A stretch of DNA of 64,000 nucleotides from Epinephelus fuscoguttatus. Lineage: Eukaryota > Chordata > Actinopteri > Perciformes > Serranidae. The stretch is from assembly GCF_011397635.1 (NCBI RefSeq), contig NC_064767.1, positions 6,519,501 through 6,583,500 of the forward strand. Direction: 5' to 3'. Both the position numbers and the translations under genes were made by a program. Positions 1,671 through 57,454 of this stretch are shown here, one piece after another. The notes under the pieces are model-generated. The model saw only the letters and a list, made by a program, of their open reading frames with translations, searched no databases and was not told the DNA's origin. Every line of letters begins with the position of its first letter. Position 1 is the first letter of the stretch.

Positions 1671-4600
1671 TCAGAGTTGAACAACAGCCTTTTTCTTCTG
1701 ATGACGCTGGACAGTCTCCATGGCAACCGTGGCTTCATAAAGGGGGACCGCCTCCTCAGGCTGAGGTCTGGAGAGACAGATTGAAAATTAAATTTGATTT
1801 AAGTTATACAGCAGTCTGTACATCTTTAAAACGGCAGGCTGTAACTCCTTATTTTGTGCATGTATTTGTGGTCTTAATAGTCTTAAATCTATAAACTCAA
1901 TTATGAAACATATCTGGTCTTGCAGACAGATTTTGAGAATTGGGGGCATTTAAATAAAACCAGGGAGTGCTTCTTTAATTTGATAACTTGCAGAGAAAAG
2001 ACAAAACAGATGTGACACACAAAATGCAGTTTCTTATGCCTTCTATATTTAGAGCAGCACTAGGGCTCTTTGCAATCTGACGGCCCGATATAATGTGACA
2101 TGCCCATGTTTGCCAGCGTGCATTTAAAATACACAAAAGAGATGACAAAAATAGCTTGTTTGTGATTCAGCCTGACATTTATACATAGGCGCATTTCTGC
2201 CCAGAAATACTGAATTTAAAAGTTGTATGTCATGTTTGATATCGCACTTGATACAATTTAATTTCCACATATTCACCCAAAGCTGTAAACGGCTCATTCT
2301 GTAGTCATTGTATTTCTCAGCATTATGATTTTGTCTGACCCAGCTTTAACCCTACCAGGGGTTAGTTGTGTGATAAGTTACCTGAGTACTCCAGCTGACA
2401 TCTTCTCCACAATGTCCTTCAGAGTATCTGGCACAAGGCTGTTAAGGAGGGCATGGATGTACCTGATCATGTGCATATGTTTTAGATTACACACTGTGAG
2501 CAAAGGATACGGAGGTATCTTCCTTGCTGAGCTGATGAAGCCGTCCACACTTCATCGTTGAGGAAAGAAATGGAGGCTGACTTTAGGTGCAAATATCTGC
2601 AATCTGGAGGATCCAACTGTGAAAATACAAAAACACAGAACAGTGATAAATAAGACTTAATCTGTACTTTTGAATTGAGCTGTACAGAATTATGATAATA
2701 ATAAATATTTGTTTTGTAAAATAGTTCTTATTTAGTTTATTAGGAACAGATTTAAGCTGTATTATGTGTTCTGTCATTGTAACTGGAGATTCTAAAATAA
2801 CAGATATGAAGTAATGATACAGCTCTGACTCGCCTGCAGGTCTTTGTGGGATGTGACCCAGTGCCCACCAACTCCCAGCACACTGATGATGTCATGCTTG
2901 TGTGGGAGGAGCTTCGTCTCCTCTGGCCCTTCCTCCTGCAGACGCACTACAAACACACAAAGCGAAATGTTATGTTGCTGTTGAATTGAAGGTTGTGTTG
3001 TTGATCTGCAGGACCATTTATAAGCCTGAGGGCACGCTGACAGTTCATCACTGTGAATAAGACAGAGAAACTGACACAGAAAAATGTGTTTACCTCCAGA
3101 GTCTATGACTATATCCAATCCCAGTCCTCCCGTCTCCTCCAAAACCACTGCCAGCAGGTCTGATGAGTCGTTATAAACTGGAATAACCTTGGCTTTACAC
3201 ACAAAGACACAACAACATGGTTTCATAAGTCAGTTTGACATGTAATACATTTACATTTTTTAAAAGCTGCTGACTGAACACCAGTCTCAAGGCCAGTTAG
3301 CAATTCTGCTCCTGTCTGCACAAAACATCTCATTGGAAGCTCATTCAAGTTGCAGTAGTTGCAATTCCGATTTGATCCACATGATGGCAGCAGGTTTTAA
3401 ATTGAGATTTATTTTAATTTCAGTCTCCCAATGAGAAATTAACAAAGTCTTATCTTGGGGTAATATGACTTAATTAAAACGCTTCAGACAGACTTAAGAT
3501 ACACAAACCAAAAACCTACAGCTCATTGAGTTGAGCAGACGGGTATGTACTGCAAGAATGAGAAGGCAAGCATTAAGCCAGAAAGACAGAAAGAAAAGAT
3601 CTCACCTACTAAAGGATCCTGAACACCTGATGAAAATATGAAGGGGAGGAGAGAAGAACAGAGGAAGATGAGAAAAGGAAGCAAAGGTTTTAAATAGGGT
3701 GAAAGAGGAGCAAAAAAGCATGAAATTATCCAAAAGGAGAAGTGGTCTATACTTTGATTTTGTAGAGAATACATTTAAAATCATTTTACAGACACTGCAT
3801 GAAGATTGGGTTTAAAATTTTACATTACTGTTAAGAACACAGAAAGAAAGTGTGAACTACGGACATCACGTATTGGCCTGTGCGTACCTACGCTGGGCCG
3901 AAGCTGCTCCAGGAATGTGTGTTGTTGCGGCGAGTGTGATGTGGTTAAAACCTTCACTCCGTGGTAACAAGCCAACTGGATGCACATAAGGCCAAAAGAC
4001 TGAGAAGGGAGAGGAGATATGAACATCACTGCATGTAGACAGAGATTCACTGGAATTCAACACATCTTTTCTTCATTAGAGAGTTTAAATGCAGAGTATG
4101 ATAGAAAACATGGGGAGAAAAACTACTACTGCATTTTACATACACTGGCTCCGTCCATGACCAGGAGTGTGTGTCCTGCTGCCATGCGAGCGTGTGTGTG
4201 CAGAGCAGTGTAAGCACAGAGGCCATCACGCAGTGCTCCTGCCACACATACCGAGCTGAGCTTCTCTGGCTTCTGAACTGGAGAACATAAACAGAAACAC
4301 ACACATGTATTGGATCAGTTGGATCAGTTTACAAATCTCATCATGCCTTAATGATGTCAGAATTTCTAGCTTTGAAGAAAGCTGATTGATATGTGTATAA
4401 AATCAGAGTAAGTAATCAGTTTTAAGTGCTGAACTCCAGCATATTCATGTCCTCTCTCTCTTCTTGTACAGGGCTTCAAAATGAAGTCAGACAAACTACA
4501 GGTGGAAGCAGGTCTGGCGGTCTGTGCACTAAAAGTGCTTCTACACAGTTCTGCTTCTTTCAATCTACCGGTAGCATTTCTAAGTACATGCAGTGCAGAT

Positions 4601-47234: not shown

Positions 47235-50200
47235 ACTCAGACCTGTAATGTACATGATATCTGTATTAAACCAAAGTAAGCATCCTTTTAAACTGACCTC
47301 TGAAGCATTTAATCATGTTTTTTATTTAATTATGTCCCTGTTGTGACATTTTTTTAAATACAATACAATTCAATTAAATTTTTATATATTGAGTTCGTTA
47401 TTTTTGAGTCATTTTACCTGAAGCTGCATTAATCAATAACTCTGGAGTATCTCTGCAGTTATTTGTGGCTGAAATATATCAAATATAAATAGGCAGATTT
47501 ATGAGGTGACATATATTATGGCTGTACAAAAGCAAAATGCCCCCAAAAAATGAATCTGCCCTTTTTCTGAATTCATGACACAGTAATCCTGTTTATTCAG
47601 GGATACAATAATTAATGAGATAACCACATTAATTCAGAAAAATTGCAAATAGTATTTTCTTAACTGAATGCATTACCCTTCTGTGCTGCTGTGTGTCTGT
47701 CAGCTTGTTAAGAAGTAAACGGATAAAAGCATCATTAAAGCTGAAGTATGGAACTTGTGGTTCTCCCAGTCTGGCAGTGAGAGTAATTACAACACTATCG
47801 ATCTGCTCCGCCCTCAGGAGGGCTCTCCTGAAGTCTTTTTGACTTCATCCTTTCTCAGAATGCCAAGTTTCAATGCACGTGCACAGGAAAGTCGCCAAGG
47901 TGACCACAATCAGCGTACTGTGAAATACAGAGAGCTTCCCTGGTGCCATAGGCTCTATCAGTGGTGTGAACTTGTTTGGCAAGTGCATGGACTTGTATAT
48001 GCAAAAGTCAAAATAGTCAAAATATAAATATTGCAAAAGCTAAATATTGCAAGTTACTTATTAATGTAACTGCAGCAGAGCCTGATCACATCTTAGTTTG
48101 TTCGTGATGAGAAATTAACTGATTCCACAGCAGCTCTTGAGTTTATAGCAAATTTTAAAAAGCCAGGAGCAATCTTTATTTCTCCTTTTTTGCACTCAGC
48201 TTCAAACAATTTCAGGTAACAGAAGTCATAAACCATCATAAATATCTTCCTAATTAGTAAGCTGTTTGTGAGTGACATGTTTTACCATTCATAAGAGAAG
48301 CCCAAATGCCAAGCTTCCCTATTTAGGTAAACGTTAAAACAACCAGTCTTCTGAAAGATAAAGAATTTCTGTCACATAAACTTTTAATAGACATTGTCTT
48401 TAATTTCTACACACATACACACACTTTAGACATGTGAATCACAGAAATAAACACACAGTTTCCTGGAGCACAACATAGACTCACATGACAGACTTTTGAC
48501 TTGATCTCAGGTATGTATTTTGTTGGTAATGTTGTTGCTATCATGTGTTTTTTCTCTTTTGTTTTTGCCCCTTCCATGTGTCAGGATGTTTGATTGACAG
48601 CTGTGTGTGTGCTGTTTGTATTTCAGGGTGCGCTGACCTCCACCTGCTGGACATGCTGAGTCCCATGGAGAGGAAGAGGCAGGGATACATCCACGAGCTG
48701 ATCGTCACCGAGGAGAACTACGTCAACGATCTGCAGCTCGTCACAGAGGTAAACACAAAGATACATAAGTGTTCATAAATATTATATACTGTATATAGCA
48801 CAGAATATTTACCAGTTGGGTAGTCTGGAAAGAAATTTACCTCTGAATATTTGCATCCCAGATTGTTCTGTCAGCCTTTCCTCTGCCACACATCACTGAC
48901 ATTTTTCTCTAGTAACTCTTGTGCATGTGTGTTTAGATCTTCCACAAACCTCTGTTGGAGTGCGAGCTGCTGACGGAGAAAGAGGTGGCCATGATCTTTG
49001 TCAACTGGAAGGAGCTCATCATGTGCAACATCAAGCTGCTCAAGTAAAGAGAAACAACACCTATCACTGTTACACGCTCATGCACACAGTGCGCTTTGTT
49101 TCATGTGGCAGACATTTGCATCTGACACGTTTTGCAAAGCACAAGTCAGACGTCATCGGCTTTGAAGTTATTGTAATTCTAAAAATAATATTTGCCTTGC
49201 AAAGTTTAGCTGCTTGGAACGATGCTGGAAAATAAACCTGTGCGCTGTTTTTGTTCCCTGACAGTCCAACCTGACACAGAATGGCGTATTGTTTTTAAGA
49301 TTTGCATAAAAGTCAATGAGGGTTGGTTCCAAAATGTAAAGTAATATTTATAACTCCCGTATAAACAAGTTAAATACTTTTATTATACTTCTGTTTAAAC
49401 CAAACTTTATCTCGAGGTGTGTTTATCACAGCCATACAGTTGAATACATCAGACCAAACCTCTCATCATGCCCCCTTCTCTTCTCCCCCTGCAGGGCTCT
49501 GAGGGTGAGGAAGAAGATGTCAGGCGATCGGATGCCGGTGAAGATGATTGGTGACATCCTGACCAACCAGCTGCCTCACATGCAGCCATACATCAGGTAC
49601 TGTCTGCTTTGAAACCCCACCTTTAATCGATCAGGAAGTCAGTTCTACCTTTAAACAGCTCGAGCTTGGAGAGGATAACTTATTTTCTAAGGTTTAATGT
49701 TCTAAGGTCTAGGGCCCATTTACCCAACTGGGTGAACGTTGATGTGTCAGATATGCCACGAAGTGATGACGATGGGAATGCATGAGAGATCTGGTTAACA
49801 GTTGGAGGGCGGCACACAATCACTGATTTGCACTTTACTTTACCAAATATGGCATATATGTCTAGTTATGTCTCCATGCCGGCAACAGCGATGGCCAGAG
49901 GCATTATGTTTCCGGGTTGTCCATCCAACCAAAATGAGAAATCTCGAGAACACCTTGAAATTTGGCACAAACGTCCACTTGGACTCATGGATGACCTGAT
50001 TAGAATTTGGTGGTCAAAGTTCACTGTGATCTTGTGTCCATCTCATTCTCAAGAACGCGATATCTCAAGAAGGCCTTGAGGGAGTGTCCACTTGGACTCA
50101 AGAGTGTACAGATTACAATTTGCTGGTCCAAGGTCAAAGGTCAATGTCACTGTGACCTCACAAAACATGTTTGTGGCAATAACTCAAGATTTATGTCAAT

Positions 50201-53200
50201 TATCAACACTAATGTCCAATAGAATACAATAATGAAGTGATGACATTTTATATCTCAAAGGTCAACTTCATTATGATATTATAATATTCTGCAAAAACAC
50301 TTTCTTTTTACTCAACGTCTCAGGCACAGAAGGGGAGACATTTGGTCAGATACTGAACTGGTGACACTAATCTTGATGCCCACCAAACTGTGCTGATTGT
50401 GTAGATCTTCTATGCTGATGATGTGTGTGAAGCAGCCATGTTTCCATAGACATGGATGTAAACTTTATGTACAACTTAATGGGTTCACATCATGTTCAGT
50501 TTTTTAATCTGAGGATAAATACATGAACAGCATTGAGCCATTTTTCCAGTGACCGTCTCTGTGCTGCTTTAAAGTACCTCTTAAACGGGGCGACCTCTAG
50601 CTCACCTGGTAGGGTGTGTGCCCCATATAGGGTGAATCCTTTTAAGCGGCTCTGGGTTCAGTTCTGACCCGCAGCCTTATGCTGCGTGCCATCGCTCCTC
50701 TCTCTCCCATATGTCCTGACAACACAAAGATCACATAAGTGTTCATAAATATTATATACTGTATATACCTCAGAATATTTACTGTTGGGTAACTATCTGA
50801 AAGAAATTTCTAGAATAATGTTGCATCCCAGATTGTTCTGTCAGCCTTTCCTCTGCCACACATCACTGACATTTTTCTCTAGTAAGTCTGTGCATGTGTG
50901 TCTTAGACTTACAACTATGATGATCAACTTTTGTGTTCAGATTCTGTTCGTGTCAGCTGAACGGAGCCACGCTGATTCAGCAGAAAACTGACGACAACCC
51001 TGAGATCAAAGACTTCCTGAAGGTACAAAATACACACACACACACACTGTACTTTCTGACTGAGAAACAGAGGTTAATGTTTATTTTATTACAAGACTTA
51101 TTTCACAGCAGCTCCATTAGGGACTGAGGTTAATCTCCATAAGCACCAAATTATAAACTAATATTATTATAACGGTCTATTAATTAAACATTCAGAGGTG
51201 TGTTTATCACAGCAGTTGAATACATCTCTCTCTCATCATCTCTCTCTCTTCTCTCTCTCTGCAGGGCTCTGAGGGTGAGGAAGAAGATGTCAGGCGATCG
51301 GATGCCGGTGAAGATGATTGGTGACATCCTGACCAACCAGCTGCCTCACATGCAGCCATACATCAGGTACTGTCTGCTTTGAAACCCCACCTTTAATCGA
51401 TCAGGAAGTCAGTTCTACCTTTAAACAGCTCGAGCTTGGAGAGGATAACTTATTTTCTAAGGTTTAATGTTCTAAGGTCTGGGGCCCATTTACCCAACTG
51501 GGTGAACGTTGATGTGTCGGATATGCTACGAAGTGATGACGATGGGAATCCATGAGAGATCTGGTTAACAGTTGGAGGGCGGCACACAATCACTGATTTG
51601 CACTTTACTTTACAAACACAAACATAGAATCTTTCAGATAAGATAAGATAGAACTTTATTTATTCCAAGGTAAATTGTAGAGCATCAGTTGCCGTAAAAA
51701 GTAGGAAGGAGTGCAAAGATGAATACAAAGCATTATTATAGTGCAAATCCAAAATGAAACAAAAGTGTTCCCAGGATGATGAACACAGTGAAAAACCTCT
51801 ACAATGTACATTCAACTGAGCTACAAACAAACAGTAAATTAGAGTAATTTATGAAAAGAGTGGGGAAAAATGAGAGAAACTGTCACTGTCTGGCTGATGC
51901 TTGTGCAGCTATAGAACTGATTGTTGCAAAAAATTGGTCATTCCCTACTTTAAATTAAGTTTAAGGCAGTTACAGCCATACAACTTCTACCTGTGCCCTC
52001 TTCCTTTATCTTTCTATGTTAACTAATATGTAGGAAAATCCCAAAATATTTTAAAATTAAGAGTATAAGTGTATATTTGGTTAGTAATTTACATTAAATA
52101 CTAGAAAACAAAGCTTTGGATTTATGCATGTCTGAGATTATAAAGGTAAAAGTCTGTTTTTACAGTATGTAAATGCCTTATCTTCTATAATAATTGTATT
52201 TTTTAATGTGCAAACAAATGCGTAGGTAAAATGAACACCCACACAGCCAACTAGAAAATAACTGAATGTGCCTGTGTATGATTTTCTGTTTTAGGTGAAC
52301 GAGGGCGTCAGAGAGAAGGAGAACTCAGATCGTCTGGAGTGGATTCAGGCTCACGTCCAGTGTGAAGGATTGTCTGAGGTAACTGCAGCACATACACGCA
52401 CGACCAAGAAGCTTTCCAGACATTGTTTGCGTTGTGTACTACTCACCAGCTACACATTTACAACACAGATATTAAACTACATGTCTGTGGTTGTCCATAC
52501 ACTTCAATGATAAACAAAGACCTGCAGAGCGATTAAGGGATCACCGTGGGTCAAACGATCTCACCTGACCAACTTCAACACAGTAACACATGCAATTATT
52601 ACGTTACTTATTATTATTAGTATTATTATTTATGTTTAGCCTTAATCTGTACAGCAATGGTTGGGTGTATTCACATGCTCTTGGGCCTGCTCTTAACACC
52701 TAGTTTAATAGAACAATAACAACAAAATAATCAATAGAATAATAATAATAATAATAATACATTTTATTTAAGGGCGCCTTTCATGGCACTCAAGGTCACC
52801 TTACAAAAGTACAGAAGTGCATAAAAACAGGGATAAAAACAAACAATAAAATACAATGGACAGTGCAAGGATCAGACGGAGTATGAGAGTTTGAACAGAT
52901 GGGTTTTCAGTCTGGTTTTAAAGAGGGGTAAGGAGTCCGTGTTGCGGAGGTCAGGGGGGAGGGAGTTCCAAAACTGGGGAGCCGAGCGGCTGAATGCTCG
53001 GCCCCCCATGGTGACAAGGCGAGCAGAGGGGACAGAGAGATGGATGGAGGAAGAGGATCGGAGGGTACGGGTAGGTACAGAGATATTAATGAGATCAGAG
53101 AGGTATGGAGGGGCAAGACTGTGGATGGCTCTGTATGTATGGAGTAGGATTTTGTATTGAATGCGGTATGTGATGGGGAGCCAGTGGAGCTGCTGCAGGA

Positions 53201-56200
53201 TGGGTGTGATGTGGTGAGTGGATGGTGTTCTTGAAATGATGCAGAGCTGCTGAATTCTGTACCAGTTGAAGTTTATGGAGGGTTTTCTGGGAGGCCAAAC
53301 AGAAGGGAATTACAATAGTCAAGTCTGGAGGTACACTAAACTGTGAACCAGAATGGCAGTGGTGTGAGGGGTGAGAGAGGGGCGGAGGCGGTTGATGTTT
53401 CGAAGGTGGAAGTAGGCAGACCGGGTTATGTTGTTAATGTGTGCTGTGAAGGAGAGTGTGCTGTCGAGGATGACACCCAGACTCTTTACCTGAGGGGAAG
53501 GGGAGATGGAGGAGTGGTCGAATGGAATGGTGAAGTTATTGGATTTATTGAGAGTGGATTTAGAGCCAATTATTAACATTTCTGTTTTGTCACTGTTTAA
53601 TTTGAGGAAATTGAATGTGAACCAGGACTTTATTTCAAGGAGACAGTTGGTGAGGGAGGAAGGTGGGAGGATGGAGTCCGGTTTGGAGGAGATGTAGAGC
53701 TGGGTGTCATCCGTAGCAGTGGAACTGTATATTGTGCTTACGGAGGATGTGACCAAGTGGGAGGATGTAAATGATGAAGAGCAGGGGCCCCAGGACTGAG
53801 CCCTGGGCACACCTGTGGTGACTGGGAGGGTGTGTGAATGATTTGAGCTGAATGAACTTAAATACTAGGCCAGAGAGGTATGATTTAAACCAGGTGAGGG
53901 GGGTGTGGGTGATGCCAATAGTGCAAAGTCTGTCCAGGAGGATGGTGTGGGAGATGGTGTCAAAGGCCACACTCAGATCAAGCAGGATGAGTATAGATAA
54001 AAGACCAGAATCAGCAGCAAGGAGATCATTGGTGTTTTTATGATTTTGGGCTGTTTTAGTGGAGGAGAGGGGACGGAAACCAGATTGAAATTGTTCGTAT
54101 AGATCGTTGTGGAGCAGATGAGAGTGAAGTTGATTGGCAACAGTTTTTTCAAGGATTTTGGAAAGAAAAGGAAGATTAGAGATAGGACGGAGGTTATTGA
54201 GGTTGTTGGGGTCAGCACCAGGTTTTTTGAGTGTGGGAGTGACAGCAGCTGTTTTAAGGGGTGAGGGGACAATACCAGTGGTGAGGGAAGAGTGGGTTAT
54301 GTGTGTGATGAGAGGGGCCAGAGAAGAAGCAGCAGCTTTAACAAGAGCCGTTGGAAGGGGGTCCAGTTGACAGGTGGAGGTTTTGGATTTTTTGATGAGA
54401 TCAGCAATTTCAGAGACAGAGGGCAGGGTGAATACTGAGTGACTGAGAAGGGGGAACAGCAGGTAGAAAGGAGGGAATGGTAGCGGGAATGGCGGGAAGA
54501 AGTTGCTGATGGATGTTTGTCAATGTGTCACTCTTGATTCTGGTATCATCATGTTTGACATTTTATGAACCAAATGATTCATATAAAATAAATAAATAAA
54601 TAAATAACCAACTTGTCCCTCTTTGTCCTTCAGCAACTGGTGTTTAACTCCGTCACCAACTGTCTGGGTCCCAGGAAGTTCCTCCACAGTGGGAAGTTGT
54701 TTAAAGCCAAGAGCAGCAAGGAGCTCTACGGCTTCTTGTTCAATGACTTCCTGCTGCTGACACAGGTGATTTCATGCTGCTTCATACACACACTTCACCA
54801 TATTTCAGAGGGAATATTGTAGTTTTTACTCCACTACATTTATGTTACAGCTTACTTTCTAGATAAAGAATTTTAAAAGATTTTAGAAGTCTGATTTTTC
54901 TCTGTCATCATGTGAATGGGGCCATACCAAAAGTTTGAAGTACAGAAGTACTTCACTGTACGTAATATATAGTAGAAACTATAAAACTATTTTTAGATTG
55001 TTGAATGGAATATTTCTTCCACCCCTGGTGACTGTTTTCTAAGCACAGTCTAATCGTCACTGAAACCTTTTACCTCTCTCTAAACCCATCTTTCTCTTTG
55101 TCCCCTCTCACAGGTGACCAAACCTCTGGGCTCGTCAGGCTCGGACAAAGTCTTCTCCTCGAAAACACACCTGCAGTACCGCATGTACAAGACGGTAAGA
55201 CGACAAGCACACTCATTCACAGATGTATGTTCACGCGCTCTGCTTCTGTTTGATCAGGCTCATCAACAGGTCCTTAACTCCTGAAGTAAATATGTTGATT
55301 TTTTTTATCTGTTGTGGTAAATTGCTGAAACTTTGGATACCTGCAGATATTTGTACCATGTTTAAAGTGAAGTATAATTTATTTAGAGTTGACGAACCTG
55401 CCTTAAATGTATCTGTACACTTACTCACGATAACTGAACTTTTCTTGTCTCTTTCAGCCAATCTTTCTAAATGAAGTGTTAGTGAAGCTGCCAACAGACC
55501 CGTCAGGAGATGAACCTCTGTTCCACATCTCTCACATAGACAGAGTTTACACACTCAGAGCCGAGAGTATCAATGAAAGGTAATATGTACGCATGAACAG
55601 ACACGTGCAGTACATGAGGGATGCAATTGGGGTTTTTTACAACCTGTCTTATTTTGTTGTTTTTGCTGTCATTCCTGTCATTTGTGATGATATTTTACAC
55701 ACTGCTGCTGAGGTCTTGAATTTATCTGCTTTATTTAAAATGTCTGCAGTCACTTTAAAAAGCATGTATCTTTGTTTGTGTGTGTTTATGCAGGACGGCG
55801 TGGGTTCAGAAAATCAAGGCAGCTTCAGAGCTCTTCATTGAGACAGAGAAGAAGAAGAGAGAGAAGGCGTATTTAGGTATCTCTCCTTATTATTTTACTC
55901 CATCCTGAATGTTTTGTTTGTATAAAACATTTAAATAGTCAAACTGAAATGAATTTCTCTTTGTCTCAGTGCGTTCTCAGAGGGCTACAGGTATCGGTAG
56001 ACTGATGGTCAACATTGTGGAAGGCATTGAGCTAAAACCCTGTCGCTCCCATGGTACGTTCACACTCCTTTTACTGAAGTTTGAAAGAGAGAAAAGGCTC
56101 ATGTTTCTCCTGCTAAACCAAAAAATGCTTATTAATGCTGTGAGCACCCAGTAAAACCCTTTACTTAGCCTGGGGCCAGTGATGCTCATTATTATTATAA

Positions 56201-57454
56201 TGTTGGATGTAAAATGCTACATTTACCATAAATATACAGTCAATATACCCAAATGTCACCCATAATATAACATACAGTAAATTCTGTTGAGGAAACAAGA
56301 GTGTCTTAACCTGAGACTTCCTATTTAAATCATTTAACTTGTCTGTTTGTGGTTGACTGGTAAAAGAAACAGAGATGTTATACATGTACATACACTATAT
56401 ATAAATATCTTCTTGTCTTTATTTGCAGGAAAAAGTAACCCATACTGTGAGGTAACCATGGGTTCACAGTGCCATATCACAAAAACATTACAGGTATGAC
56501 TGTCGTTACAACATTTACCATCCATTTATCATTTCTGTTTTTATTTTGTGTTGTTATTGTTTGTATATAGTGCTCATAATATTCTCTCATGTCATTTCAT
56601 TCCTTTTTCTCACACATTTGTGCAGCACTGATACATTTGTCACTTACTTTTAGACACAATCCTCATTTTAATAAATGTATGAAGTGCTATATTTTTCTTA
56701 TATCATATATTATATATATTATTATATTCTTATATATTCTTCTTTAAGCCTATTTCATCTTTATTATTAGCTATTTTATTTTGATTTTTATCCATTTATC
56801 CTTATATTTATATTTTTTATCCATTTTATTGTTAGCTATTTTATTTATATTTTTATCCATTTATCTTTATCTTTATATTTATTTATATTTATCCATATTA
56901 TTTTCATTTTCTCTTATTTTATCTTTTTTGCCTATTTCATCTTTATTTTGTATCTAGTCTTTATTTAATGTTTTTATTTTTATATTTTATCTCATTTTAT
57001 TCCTGTTGCAACTTTATAATTTGAAAATATCTTAAGTATTTGTATCAGATCATTCATTTTGCTGCTGTTCTCTCTCTCTCGGCGTAGGACACATTAAATC
57101 CGAAGTGGAACTCCAATTGTCAGTTTTTTATAAAGGACCTGGAACAGGACGTCCTCTGTGTCACTGTGTTTGAACGAGACCAGTTCTCGCCTGACGGTCA
57201 GTCATAATCACACACTGCCTTTTAAAAGATGTTCTCCAGGAGAGATAAATGGCTTTATTTTACAATTCCATCACACACTCTGTCTTCAACTTTCTCCCCC
57301 TCCAGACTTCCTGGGCAGGACAGAGATCCGGTTGGCTGAAATAAAGAAGGACCAGGGCTCTAAAGGACCAATCACGAAGCGGTTGCTACTCCATGAGGTT
57401 CCCACGGGAGAGATCGTTGTCAGGCTGGACCTCCAGCTGTTTGAGGAACCGTAA
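15972..57454 (+). CDS. itsn1: Intersectin-1, long isoform (EH-EH-coiled coil-SH3x5-DH-PH-C2)
   Basis: The protein aligns with vertebrate ITSN1 from MAQFPT to the C2-domain end DLQLFEEP. Forty-one coding exons (without the microexon and candidate cassette exons) join with matching phases; they are given by domain below. The start ATG follows an in-frame stop and matches the family N-terminus. As assembled the frame is 5091 bp (1696 residues). About 61 residues of the DH domain are missing between 51022 and 52295, so an intact protein would be near 1757. It is a cytosolic scaffold of clathrin-mediated endocytosis and a Cdc42 exchange factor. Choosing between the terminal exon at 41485 and the exon at 48627 separates short and long forms. 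Adjacent cryzl1 supports itsn1 rather than itsn2. Confidence 0.93.
17155..18389 (+). CDS. itsn1: itsn1 exons 3-5: EH1 domain
   Basis: Exons are 17155-17247, 17982-18045 and 18229-18389 (about residues 10-115). They encode [25 protein letters not shown] and the EF-hand loop [21 protein letters not shown] domains bind NPF motifs in partners such as epsin and stonin. The calcium-loop acidic residues D, N, D and E are present. Exon 5 continues into a proline-rich segment ([15 protein letters not shown]). Phases 1-1-2-1 join cleanly. Confidence 0.93.
19035..19653 (+). CDS. itsn1: itsn1 exons 6-7: proline-rich inter-EH linker
   Basis: Exons are 19035-19220 and 19575-19653. Exon 6 is extremely proline-rich ([26 protein letters not shown]) and ends [12 protein letters not shown], the counterpart of human VIQPLPAFAHP. 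Exon 7 encodes [15 protein letters not shown], matching the serine-rich KSSSFSRS segment. The linker is more proline-rich than in human and probably disordered. Confidence 0.9.
19970..20467 (+). CDS. itsn1: itsn1 exons 8-10: EH2 domain
   Basis: Exons are 19970-20070, 20168-20231 and 20330-20467 (about residues 204-304). They encode [37 protein letters not shown] and the EF-hand [21 protein letters not shown], all nearly identical to mammalian ITSN1. Exon ends in phases 1, 2 and 2 join without gaps. Confidence 0.95.
20717..25705 (+). CDS. itsn1: itsn1 exons 11-17: KLERQ coiled-coil region
   Basis: Exons are 20717-20811, 22129-22268, 22555-22677, 23023-23172, 24694-24834, 25081-25168 and 25566-25705 (about residues 305-597). 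Charged heptad sequence includes [46 protein letters not shown] and [11 protein letters not shown], and ends DAFNTQLK. In intersectins this region mediates homo- and hetero-oligomerisation, including with Eps15. Exon 11 is an acidic insert (EEAEEEAE) more variable than the rest. The last exon ends in phase 0, where candidate extra exons could enter. Confidence 0.93.
21667..21847. mobile_element. hAT-type MITE with intact 8-bp target duplication
   Basis: A 181-bp element in itsn1 intron 11 is bounded by perfect 11-bp terminal inverted repeats, CAGGGTTGGAA and its complement. It is flanked on both sides by the same 8 bases, ATTGTTGC (21659-21666 and 21848-21855). Length of target duplication and CAGGG ends fit the hAT superfamily. 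It has no coding capacity. Confidence 0.85.
26185..27400. mobile_element. Degenerate inverted-repeat element in itsn1 intron 17
   Basis: The left end has TTTCCACTGCATGGTACGAC and the right end, near 27376-27397, carries the complement GTCGTGCAGTGGAAA. A second related copy lies in opposite orientation at about 42650-42905. Such TTTCCACTGCA-ended repeats look like a nonautonomous DNA transposon family; the boundaries and the continuity of this 1.2-kb unit are uncertain. Confidence 0.4.
28747..28830 (+). CDS. itsn1: Candidate itsn1 cassette exon 17a (84 bp, coiled coil)
   Basis: A long pyrimidine tract and CCAG precede an 84-bp open exon with donor CAG/GTAGAG. It encodes [19 protein letters not shown] after a short cysteine-containing start. 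It is phase 0 at both ends, so it fits exactly between exon 17 (phase 0 end) and exon 18 (phase 0 start). The sequence is a credible coiled coil. Mammalian ITSN1 as I know it has no such segment, so this may be a teleost-specific or alternatively used exon. Confidence 0.5.
30344..30421 (+). CDS. itsn1: Candidate itsn1 cassette exon 17b (78 bp)
   Basis: It follows a TTTCAG acceptor and is open in phase 0 for 26 codons ([21 protein letters not shown] at its end region), with donor AAG/GTCCAC, which is weak. Hydrophobic residues fall in heptad spacing and carry on into candidate exon 17c. Usage needs transcript data. Confidence 0.4.
31567..31683 (+). CDS. itsn1: Candidate itsn1 cassette exon 17c (117 bp)
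   Basis: Acceptor cacaccag is followed by 39 open codons beginning [15 protein letters not shown], and a donor ACA/GTAAAT. It is phase 0 at both ends. The start continues the heptad pattern of candidate exon 17b; the second half is less coiled-coil-like, so an earlier end cannot be excluded. Confidence 0.38.
33603..34166 (+). CDS. itsn1: itsn1 exons 18-19: end of coiled coil and acidic linker
   Basis: Exons are 33603-33739 and 33886-34166 (about residues 598-736). Exon 18 starts [19 protein letters not shown], matching human ELREIHNKQQLQKQK, then has a [12 protein letters not shown] stretch encoded by an AC-rich simple repeat. Exon 19 is rich in E and K and ends [16 protein letters not shown], the counterpart of human KLGRLFHQ. 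Compared with mammals the long ELEKQKEEAQRR-type helix is absent here. The exon joins in phases 2 and 1 are good. Confidence 0.85.
35062..35310 (+). mobile_element. Fragment of non-LTR retrotransposon 3' coding region
   Basis: In itsn1 intron 19 this interval matches the pattern of a very common fish LINE C-terminus: [36 protein letters not shown] and [13 protein letters not shown]. It is degenerate and truncated. Assignment to a particular family (Rex1-like) is a guess. Confidence 0.5.
35413..37675 (+). CDS. itsn1: itsn1 exons 20-22: SH3A domain and microexon
   Basis: Exons are 35413-35576, optional 35989-36003, and 37431-37675 (about residues 737-872). The domain reads [17 protein letters not shown], then GDVIM, then [16 protein letters not shown] and [15 protein letters not shown], carrying the ALYPF, tryptophan and proline positions needed for ligand binding. 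SH3A binds dynamin, CIN85 and SOS1 in mammals. Exon 20 begins with a glutamine run from five CAG codons. Exon 22 ends with the AP2-binding WADF motif in a disordered tail. Confidence 0.93.
35989..36003 (+). CDS. itsn1: 15-nt neuronal-type microexon (VKGEW) in SH3A
   Basis: GTGAAGGGGGAATGG encodes VKGEW and is flanked by an AAG acceptor and a GTAAGT donor. It inserts between VIM and VDESQ exactly where mammalian ITSN1 has its neuron-specific five-residue insertion in the SH3A n-Src loop. Upstream is CTCTCCTCTGCTGTGC, a pyrimidine/UGC context expected for SRRM4-dependent microexons. In mammals the insert changes SH3A partner choice. Confidence 0.88.
37926..38100 (+). CDS. itsn1: itsn1 exon 23: SH3A-SH3B linker
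   Basis: It encodes a disordered linker with [11 protein letters not shown], matching human DNWDAW, and [12 protein letters not shown] then [10 protein letters not shown], nearly identical to human. With WADF in the previous exon this is the AP2-binding region. It runs phase 2 to phase 0. Confidence 0.92.
38283..38643 (+). CDS. itsn1: itsn1 exons 24-25: SH3B domain
   Basis: Exons are 38283-38369 and 38495-38643 (about residues 932-1009). They encode [38 protein letters not shown] and [11 protein letters not shown]. All SH3 signature positions are present; the ALYPW variant is shared with mammals. The following tail, [13 protein letters not shown], is species-variable linker. Confidence 0.93.
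39333..39818 (+). CDS. itsn1: itsn1 exons 26-28: linker and SH3C domain
   Basis: Exons are 39333-39412, 39503-39675 and 39773-39818 (about residues 1009-1109). Exon 26 is a serine/proline linker. Exon 27 is the SH3C domain: [38 protein letters not shown]. Exon 28 encodes [10 protein letters not shown], matching human. In mammals SH3C recruits dynamin and N-WASP. Confidence 0.93.
39999..40561 (+). CDS. itsn1: itsn1 exons 29-30: SH3D domain
   Basis: Exons are 39999-40120 and 40438-40561 (about residues 1109-1191). They encode [54 protein letters not shown] and a threonine/proline linker. Near identity to human over the domain, with the same intron inside the SH3 fold. Confidence 0.94.
40876..41070 (+). 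CDS. itsn1: itsn1 exon 31: SH3E domain and isoform branch point
   Basis: A single exon encodes [39 protein letters not shown] and [11 protein letters not shown]. It ends in phase 1 at GTGAGT. From here splicing goes either to the terminal exon 41485 (short form) or to 48627 (long form). In mammals SH3E can also contact the DH domain and inhibit it. Confidence 0.94.
41211..41248. repeat. (CA)n microsatellite downstream of the SH3E exon
   Basis: About 19 CA units lie 140 bases after the SH3E donor, within the intron spliced to make the short isoform. Confidence 0.95.
41485..41552 (+). CDS. itsn1: itsn1 short-isoform terminal coding exon
   Basis: Acceptor cccttcag precedes 41485. In phase 1 it encodes a 22-residue acidic tail, [16 protein letters not shown] then NLD, and TGA at 41550-41552. 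The downstream sequence is AT-rich with possible poly(A) signals (for example AATAAA near 41958). Confidence 0.7.
42650..42905. mobile_element. Copy of the TTTCCACTGCA-type inverted-repeat element
   Basis: Its reverse complement begins TTTTCACTGCGTCATACAGC and runs through GGCTTTCCATT to GACCCAGATTTTAAAAA order, matching the copy at 26185-26490 in composition and order. It lies in opposite orientation to that copy. Confidence 0.45.
43065..43133. repeat. GTT trinucleotide tract
   Basis: Imperfect GTT repeats with a GTTTT interruption, in the itsn1 intron after the short-form exon. Confidence 0.9.
44374..44428. repeat. (CA)n microsatellite
   Basis: Uninterrupted CA dinucleotides of about 27 units in the same intron. 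Confidence 0.95.
46886..46937. repeat. GAGT tetranucleotide repeat
   Basis: About thirteen near-perfect GAGT/GAGC units on the + strand. Confidence 0.9.
47172..47231. repeat. (CA)n microsatellite
   Basis: About 30 CA units with one CATA interruption. Confidence 0.95.
48627..52378 (+). CDS. itsn1: itsn1 DH (RhoGEF) exons, incomplete
   Basis: Exons are 48627-48748 ([17 protein letters not shown]), 48937-49043 ([18 protein letters not shown]), 49495-49596 ([18 protein letters not shown]), 50941-51022 ([17 protein letters not shown]) and 52295-52378 ([16 protein letters not shown]). Conserved region 1 and the central helices are present. The two exons that should follow FLK, covering the conserved LSSFILKPMQRVTRYPL helix and the segment up to EELCSQ, are not found between 51022 and 52295. 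In that place there is a second copy of the 102-bp exon at 51265-51366. The DH domain catalyses GDP release from Cdc42, and the absent helix is essential to it. Confidence 0.85.
48752..48936. repeat. Duplicated intron segment A (first copy)
   Basis: The segment with CATAAGTGTTCATAAATATT and TTGCATCCCAGATTGTTCTG recurs with small differences at about 50722-50915. Together with segment B it forms two copies of an ordered A-B pair. Confidence 0.85.
49400..49833. repeat. Duplicated exon-containing segment B (first copy)
   Basis: It contains the exon 49495-49596 plus about 237 bases of following intron. It recurs almost identically at about 51190-51613. Similarity stops abruptly at CACTTTACTTTAC in both. 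Confidence 0.9.
49834..50290. repeat. Unclassified fish interspersed repeat with a DR1 motif
   Basis: It begins exactly where copy B ends. It contains short internal similarities (CACTTGGACTCA twice, TCAAGAAGGCCTTGAG) and AGGTCAAAGGTCA. Such segments look like a dispersed nonautonomous element; I cannot name the family. Confidence 0.4.
50588..50721 (+). mobile_element. tRNA-derived SINE
   Basis: It has an A-box-like TAGCTCACCTGGTAGGGTG and a B-box-like GGGTTCAGTTCTGACC at tRNA spacing, followed by CTGCGTGCCATCGCTCC and a CTCTCTCCC tract. This is the usual layout of a teleost tRNA SINE. It abuts duplicated segment A'. Confidence 0.7.
50722..50915. repeat. Duplicated intron segment A' (second copy)
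   Basis: Near-identical to 48752-48936 but followed by the QLNGATL exon instead of the EKEVAMIF exon. Confidence 0.85.
51190..51613. repeat. Duplicated segment B' with second copy of the 102-bp exon
   Basis: The exon copy 51265-51366 is identical in sequence to 49495-49596, with intact AG and GT sites. It is in phase 2. Spliced after the phase-0 exon 50941-51022 it would read GGG CTC TGA, an immediate stop, so it cannot be used in that order. Confidence 0.9.
51637..51700 (-). mobile_element. 3' end of a LINE/SINE-type retroelement
   Basis: On the - strand the segment ends AATAAATAAAGTTCTATC followed by TTATCTTATCT, a typical 3' tail of fish RTE/Rex3-like elements. Only the tail is recognisable. 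Confidence 0.4.
52739..54500 (-). mobile_element. 5'-truncated L2/Maui-like LINE with degraded reverse transcriptase
   Basis: Antisense to itsn1, in the intron between DH and PH exons. The 3' end reads GGCGCCCTTAAATAAAATG then (TAT/ATT)n, as in fish L2 elements with a microsatellite tail. - strand frames carry RT landmarks: [35 protein letters not shown] and [15 protein letters not shown] (53319-53970). The frame shifts just before DDTQLY, so it is dead. The 5' limit is approximate. Confidence 0.85.
54634..55876 (+). CDS. itsn1: itsn1 PH domain exons
   Basis: Exons are 54634-54765, 55114-55194, 55458-55579 and 55794-55876. They encode [85 protein letters not shown] and [19 protein letters not shown]. 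This is the PH domain that follows the RhoGEF module, supporting membrane phosphoinositide binding and DH function. All phases join. Confidence 0.94.
55970..57454 (+). CDS. itsn1: itsn1 C2 domain exons and stop
   Basis: Exons are 55970-56053, 56429-56493, 57088-57196 and 57306-57454. They encode [62 protein letters not shown] and [17 protein letters not shown], ending at TAA 57452-57454. This is the C-terminal C2 domain of the long isoform. Length and end match human ITSN1-L. Confidence 0.95.

Follow-up and report, generated by a model that had tools for sequence, protein, structure and literature searches.

Among the described systems closest to the locus studied here is the human ITSN1-L isoform that lacks exon 35, which, in the portion of the source available, loses 31 residues of the DH domain and 25 more between the DH and PH domains (PMC3645719). 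Human exon 35 (56 residues) probably corresponds to the two exons that we call F and G. The fish locus likewise loses part of the DH domain; however, as far as the available text goes, the human exon remains in the gene and is alternatively spliced, whereas in the fish exons E and F are missing from the assembled DNA and G is kept. A second system is the mouse Itsn1-L knockout, in which, according to the accessible sections of the report, the deletion of exon 32 abolishes the long isoform and keeps the short one in viable animals (PMC7052523). The fish locus, when read as a real loss, is similar to that part of the mouse work in that the long isoform would be lost and the short one kept, but the mouse allele is an engineered frameshift and the fish locus would be a natural mosaic.

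Complex deletions of the MMBIR/FoSTeS type carry short direct copies of nearby DNA. Such copies are also found beside the gap in the fish locus, but the partner sequences of its joins are gone and the joins may be an assembly fault. Draft genomes in turn contain false duplications and lose exons, and the fish locus resembles them in an imperfect local duplication beside missing conserved exons, although the order of its pieces is more complex than that of a plain haplotype switch. One targeted literature search for the deletion of the DH core from a fish itsn1 gene returned no title on DH exon loss.

The itsn1 locus and the absence of exons E and F

The window, by which we mean the whole stretch of 64,000 bases that was analysed, comprises positions 6519501-6583500 of C16, one of the 26 contigs of a ray-finned fish assembly that totals 1,046,998,120 bases. 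By tblastn with a human ITSN1 sequence as query, residues from about 13 to 1721, the last one, were matched by exons in the right order, the final match ending at 57451; residues 1-12 and the poorly conserved stretches of about 176-202, 310-347 and 629-659 were unmatched with this query, and the stops found within the matches are places where these overrun into introns. Outside the gap both EH domains, the coiled coil, the five SH3 domains, the rest of the DH domain, the PH and the C2 domain were all recovered. This order of EH, coiled coil, SH3, DH, PH and C2, together with a closest similarity to ITSN1, points to intersectin 1 as the predicted product, and among solved structures the best matches of the DH-PH exons are those of intersectin-1.

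The exons of the DH region, all on the forward strand, were placed by tblastn and splice sites. Exon A (48627..48748) opens the region and is followed by B (48937..49043), by the first copy of C (49495..49596) and by D (50941..51022), for which a sole itsn1-type copy was reported. Exon G (52295..52378) encodes the end of the DH domain and the DH-PH linker, and H (54634..54765) the start of the PH domain. Exon G is identical to the solved human intersectin-1 chain at 28 of 28 residues, indicating that the constraint on the DH-PH region held at least until recently. The lowest human identity among the DH exons is that of D (71% over 28 residues against the human query), which could be read as a mild relaxation.

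Between D and G, the forward stretch 51023..52294 is expected to hold exons E and F, coding for 61 residues of the DH core, the expected order A, B, C+D, E, F, G being taken from the itsn2-type paralog on contig C2. Chain alignment and tblastn find both exons absent. Once joined, the fish exons match residues 1-130 of the human intersectin-1 DH-PH chain 3qbv and then continue from 192 on, which leaves 61 residues missing (the printed alignment resumes at 191, including one borrowed residue). A small-word tblastn of the 64,000-base window gave no credible match to the E-F segment; the best one (E 0.21) sits at 54109-54201, within a retrotransposon, and a diverged E or F hidden within 51023-52294 was rejected for want of a match. 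The original prediction that two DH exons of about 61 residues are absent from this interval is thus upheld by the 3qbv alignment and by the window search. In the in-frame exon chain the Pfam RhoGEF profile covers positions 2-120 of 180, as against 2-180 in the C11 paralog, so that on profile matching the itsn1 locus as assembled is predicted to lack a full DH domain with its C-terminal third.

The same prediction had called for the missing segment to be sought throughout the assembly. Among the best candidates scored (64 of 64) in the 1.047 Gb and 26 contigs, no itsn1-type E or F was present on any contig; with the complete segment as query the matches on C16 correspond to the D, G and H parts only, and the E-F segment was found in both itsn2-type loci (C11 and C2) and, more weakly, in more distant RhoGEF sequences. 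In the paralogs this query recovered E and F with identities of 55-73%, F on C2 giving the weakest match (E 0.0015), a result that demonstrates the sensitivity of the search among the best candidates scored. The intersectin-like DH loci found were those on C16, C11 and C2; no second itsn1 locus was seen, and the placement of E and F on another contig was rejected. It is hardly credible that the two exons are encoded at another genomic site and enter the transcript in some other way, or that they are too diverged to be seen: no support for this was found, the best candidates scored in the assembly are itsn2-type and more distant matches only, and moderately diverged itsn1 exons should have appeared with a query that recovers those of the paralogs. 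The absence of E and F from the assembled itsn1 locus is confirmed.

The division of the missing segment into two exons, as originally predicted, agrees with the C2 paralog, where E and F are separate, but not with the C11 paralog, where F and G are one exon (about 4123-4308 of locus L029, compared with two exons at about 4829-5126 of L030 on C2). The C2 paralog also has an additional intron inside its H part (L030, about 2959-3635). Exons C and D are a single exon in both itsn2-type paralogs, and mammals probably have them joined as well, to judge from the exon numbers in the available parts of two reports (PMC3645719, PMC7052523). Three itsn1 introns, C|D (49597-50940), H|I (54766-55113) and M|N (56494-57087), are missing from both the C11 and C2 paralogs; with H|I and M|N among them, the extra introns of this itsn1 also occur away from the damaged spot. 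At both of its ends the H|I intron has the near-repeat CACAGGTGA, as could follow intron gain. The G-H intron carries a reverse-strand retrotransposon remnant (52760-54519, outer limits by eye), in which an open stretch of 270 residues on the minus strand (53710-54519) matches Pfam RVT_1 with an E of 6.2e-22.

A mosaic of local copies between exons A and G

Two repeats, both in direct orientation on the forward strand, occupy the region of the loss. Repeat S1 (48752..48937), which makes up most of the A-B intron, recurs at 89.6% identity just before exon D as S1' (50721..50907). Repeat S2 (49414..49846), formed by the end of the B-C intron, exon C and 250 bases of the C-D intron, recurs at 93.5% as S2' (51195..51616), within the stretch expected to hold E and F. 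The latter copy contains C' (51265..51366, forward strand), a duplicate of exon C identical at 102 of 102 bases and, in the frame test, out of frame after D. Exon C and its flanks therefore recur downstream of D, out of order, and the locus reads A-B-C, a piece of the A-B intron, D, C', G. This second full copy of exon C went unmentioned in the original prediction, and the neighbouring duplication that it reported is present, although as a mosaic in changed order and not as a plain tandem repeat. A plain tandem duplication was rejected, as it would not yield the observed order of pieces.

When low-complexity sequence is filtered and pairs must measure 100 bases or more, be 80% identical or better and lie no more than 5 kb apart, the S1 and S2 pairs are the only two direct duplications in the window, and the loss of E and F coincides exactly with them, which counts for an assembly fault. 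Two such pairs (L008, L041) were found in 40 control loci (33 from searches, 4 at set places on C16 and 3 others, with nine window-overlapping loci left out), which span 174,565 bases, 142,527 of them distinct as the loci overlap. Local duplications alone are hence not rare in this genome, a point against a fault; those at this locus stand out by being linked to exons and to a loss.

The divergence between the copies is uneven, and this also speaks for a fault. A clean block of 352 bases in S2 has 5 mismatches and no gap; its first 216 bases are identical and the mismatches lie at 49711, 49749, 49757, 49780 and 49844, the last one at the edge. The intronic part of the block thus differs at 5 of 250 bases, which indicates that this is not one sequence assembled twice. 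Given 5 mismatches in 352 bases, the chance of none falling in C' is 0.18, an unremarkable value from which no constraint on C' can be claimed. Ahead of exon C and in the central part of S1 the copies are separated by many small gaps, and the blocks beside the clean one have 1.4-1.8 gap events per mismatch versus 0.3-0.4 in one control duplication, a weak contrast. Judged by eye, the tract before C' has changed in a way that resembles (CT)n drift more than typical long-read error, which again counts against a fault.

Elsewhere in the assembly, 50700-51650 has no matches other than to coding sequence of the C11 paralog and, at two places, over 43-46 bases of its own CT-rich tract. S1' and S2' match this locus over their length, as insertions copied directly from nearby unique DNA would, and a repeat family as their source is not supported by these assembly-wide matches. 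Comparison within the window found no S2 homology past 49846 and 51616. The B and D pieces were rejected as diverged copies of each other, the above-chance match being of 28 bases near the ends only (E 0.001). Soon after the first S2 copy there begins a dispersed repeat (49866-50489, with its start at about 49866-49960), for which 40 of 5478 first-look candidates were scored, and another short dispersed repeat starts just past the second copy (51630-51755).

No third copy of S1 or S2 was reported in the assembly. This argues against a real multi-copy form, in which tandem units, some of them with E and F, would have been collapsed by the assembler and the gene would be partly duplicated but functional; the local duplication and the unequal divergence along the copies are consistent with such a form, which we consider very unlikely.

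The mosaic also bears on the main rival explanation, a real and young complex deletion with locally templated insertions, either fixed or present on one allele, which we regard as possible but somewhat improbable. Replication-based repair would have copied a piece of the A-B intron, one with exon D and one with exon C, each directly oriented and taken from no more than about 2 kb away, and would have rejoined before G, omitting E and F. Repair of this kind is expected to leave a mosaic of short direct local copies together with a net loss, and the locus has copies of 187 and 422 bases as well as the D piece. The scarcity of matches to the copied stretch outside the locus points the same way, as does the order of the pieces, which template switching would produce and a simple assembly slip would not. 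The 5 differences in 250 intronic bases would be compatible with an age of at most a few million years, on rough rates. Against such a deletion stand the single assembly that records it and the state of the remaining DH-PH-C2 exons, in which no plain decay is seen.

Splicing and reading frame of the locus as assembled

The end of exon D and the start of exon G are both in phase 0. When exons B, C, D and C' are included or skipped between A and G, 16 chains result, three of which are in frame: A-G, A-B-D-G and A-B-C-D-G. Only the last holds A to D in frame, and it loses positions 121-180 of the RhoGEF profile. The original prediction that direct joining of the two phase 0 exons would keep the frame and remove the catalytic core is borne out by this analysis. 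The chains containing C' are all broken (8 of 8); when C' is spliced after D, the frameshift leads to a stop at residue 157 of the resulting translation. C' is preceded by a pyrimidine-rich tract with an AG acceptor and followed by a GT donor, and by simple count its acceptor has the pyrimidines of that of C (20 of 21 bases, versus 12 of 21 for D). Its inclusion in the transcript is plausible from these signals.

The stop after C' implies that a real allele could yield no long isoform at all, and not just a GEF-dead one. Taken at face value, the locus would give a predicted long isoform that is GEF-dead or missing, and a real deletion would act through either the A-B-C-D-G chain or the C' stop with the short isoform kept. 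The short isoform, which ends with the SH3 domains, lies upstream and should be unaffected, as suggested by the domain order and by the isoform facts in the available part of one report (PMC3645719). The survival of two paralogs with E and F is favourable to a real deletion, and so is the finding, in the accessible text of the mouse study, that mice without ITSN1-L live, with learning and memory deficits (PMC7052523).

An assembly fault as the preferred explanation

We propose, with a probability of about 0.6 (given, like our grading of the other explanations, by judgement and not by computation), that a locally duplicated region is wrongly represented in the assembly, from which exons E and F have been lost. 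The absence of these exons and the scrambled duplication occur at the same spot. A local duplication around exons B to D, either real or arising from the mixing of two haplotypes, may have been wrongly joined, and the piece bearing E and F would have dropped out. Draft assemblies lack small exons far more often than a constrained synaptic gene loses its catalytic core. The other domains of itsn1 are present with matching exons, and in the animal itself the DH domain of itsn1 is most likely intact. Against a fault, the window contains no N, which also counts for a real deletion, and B is missing from the second copy with D in its place, so that the order is not that of a plain haplotype switch. 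Of the two outcomes originally predicted, loss by the assembly is the likelier, and the other, a GEF-dead isoform, should be reworded as a GEF-dead or no long isoform in view of the C' stop.

If the assembly is at fault, gene models of this fish will contain an incorrect itsn1, and comparative work could describe a loss of GEF activity that never took place. We consider it unlikely that the catalytic core of the DH domain of ITSN1 disappeared from this fish lineage in one step, through a locally templated rearrangement that also planted a poison-exon duplicate; brain ITSN1-L would then be GEF-dead or absent, and intersectin-driven activation of Cdc42 would rest on the two itsn2-type genes. If real, the locus would be a natural knockout of the long-isoform GEF in a vertebrate retaining the scaffold isoform, and would offer a direct test of the need of intersectin-1 for its Cdc42 GEF activity.
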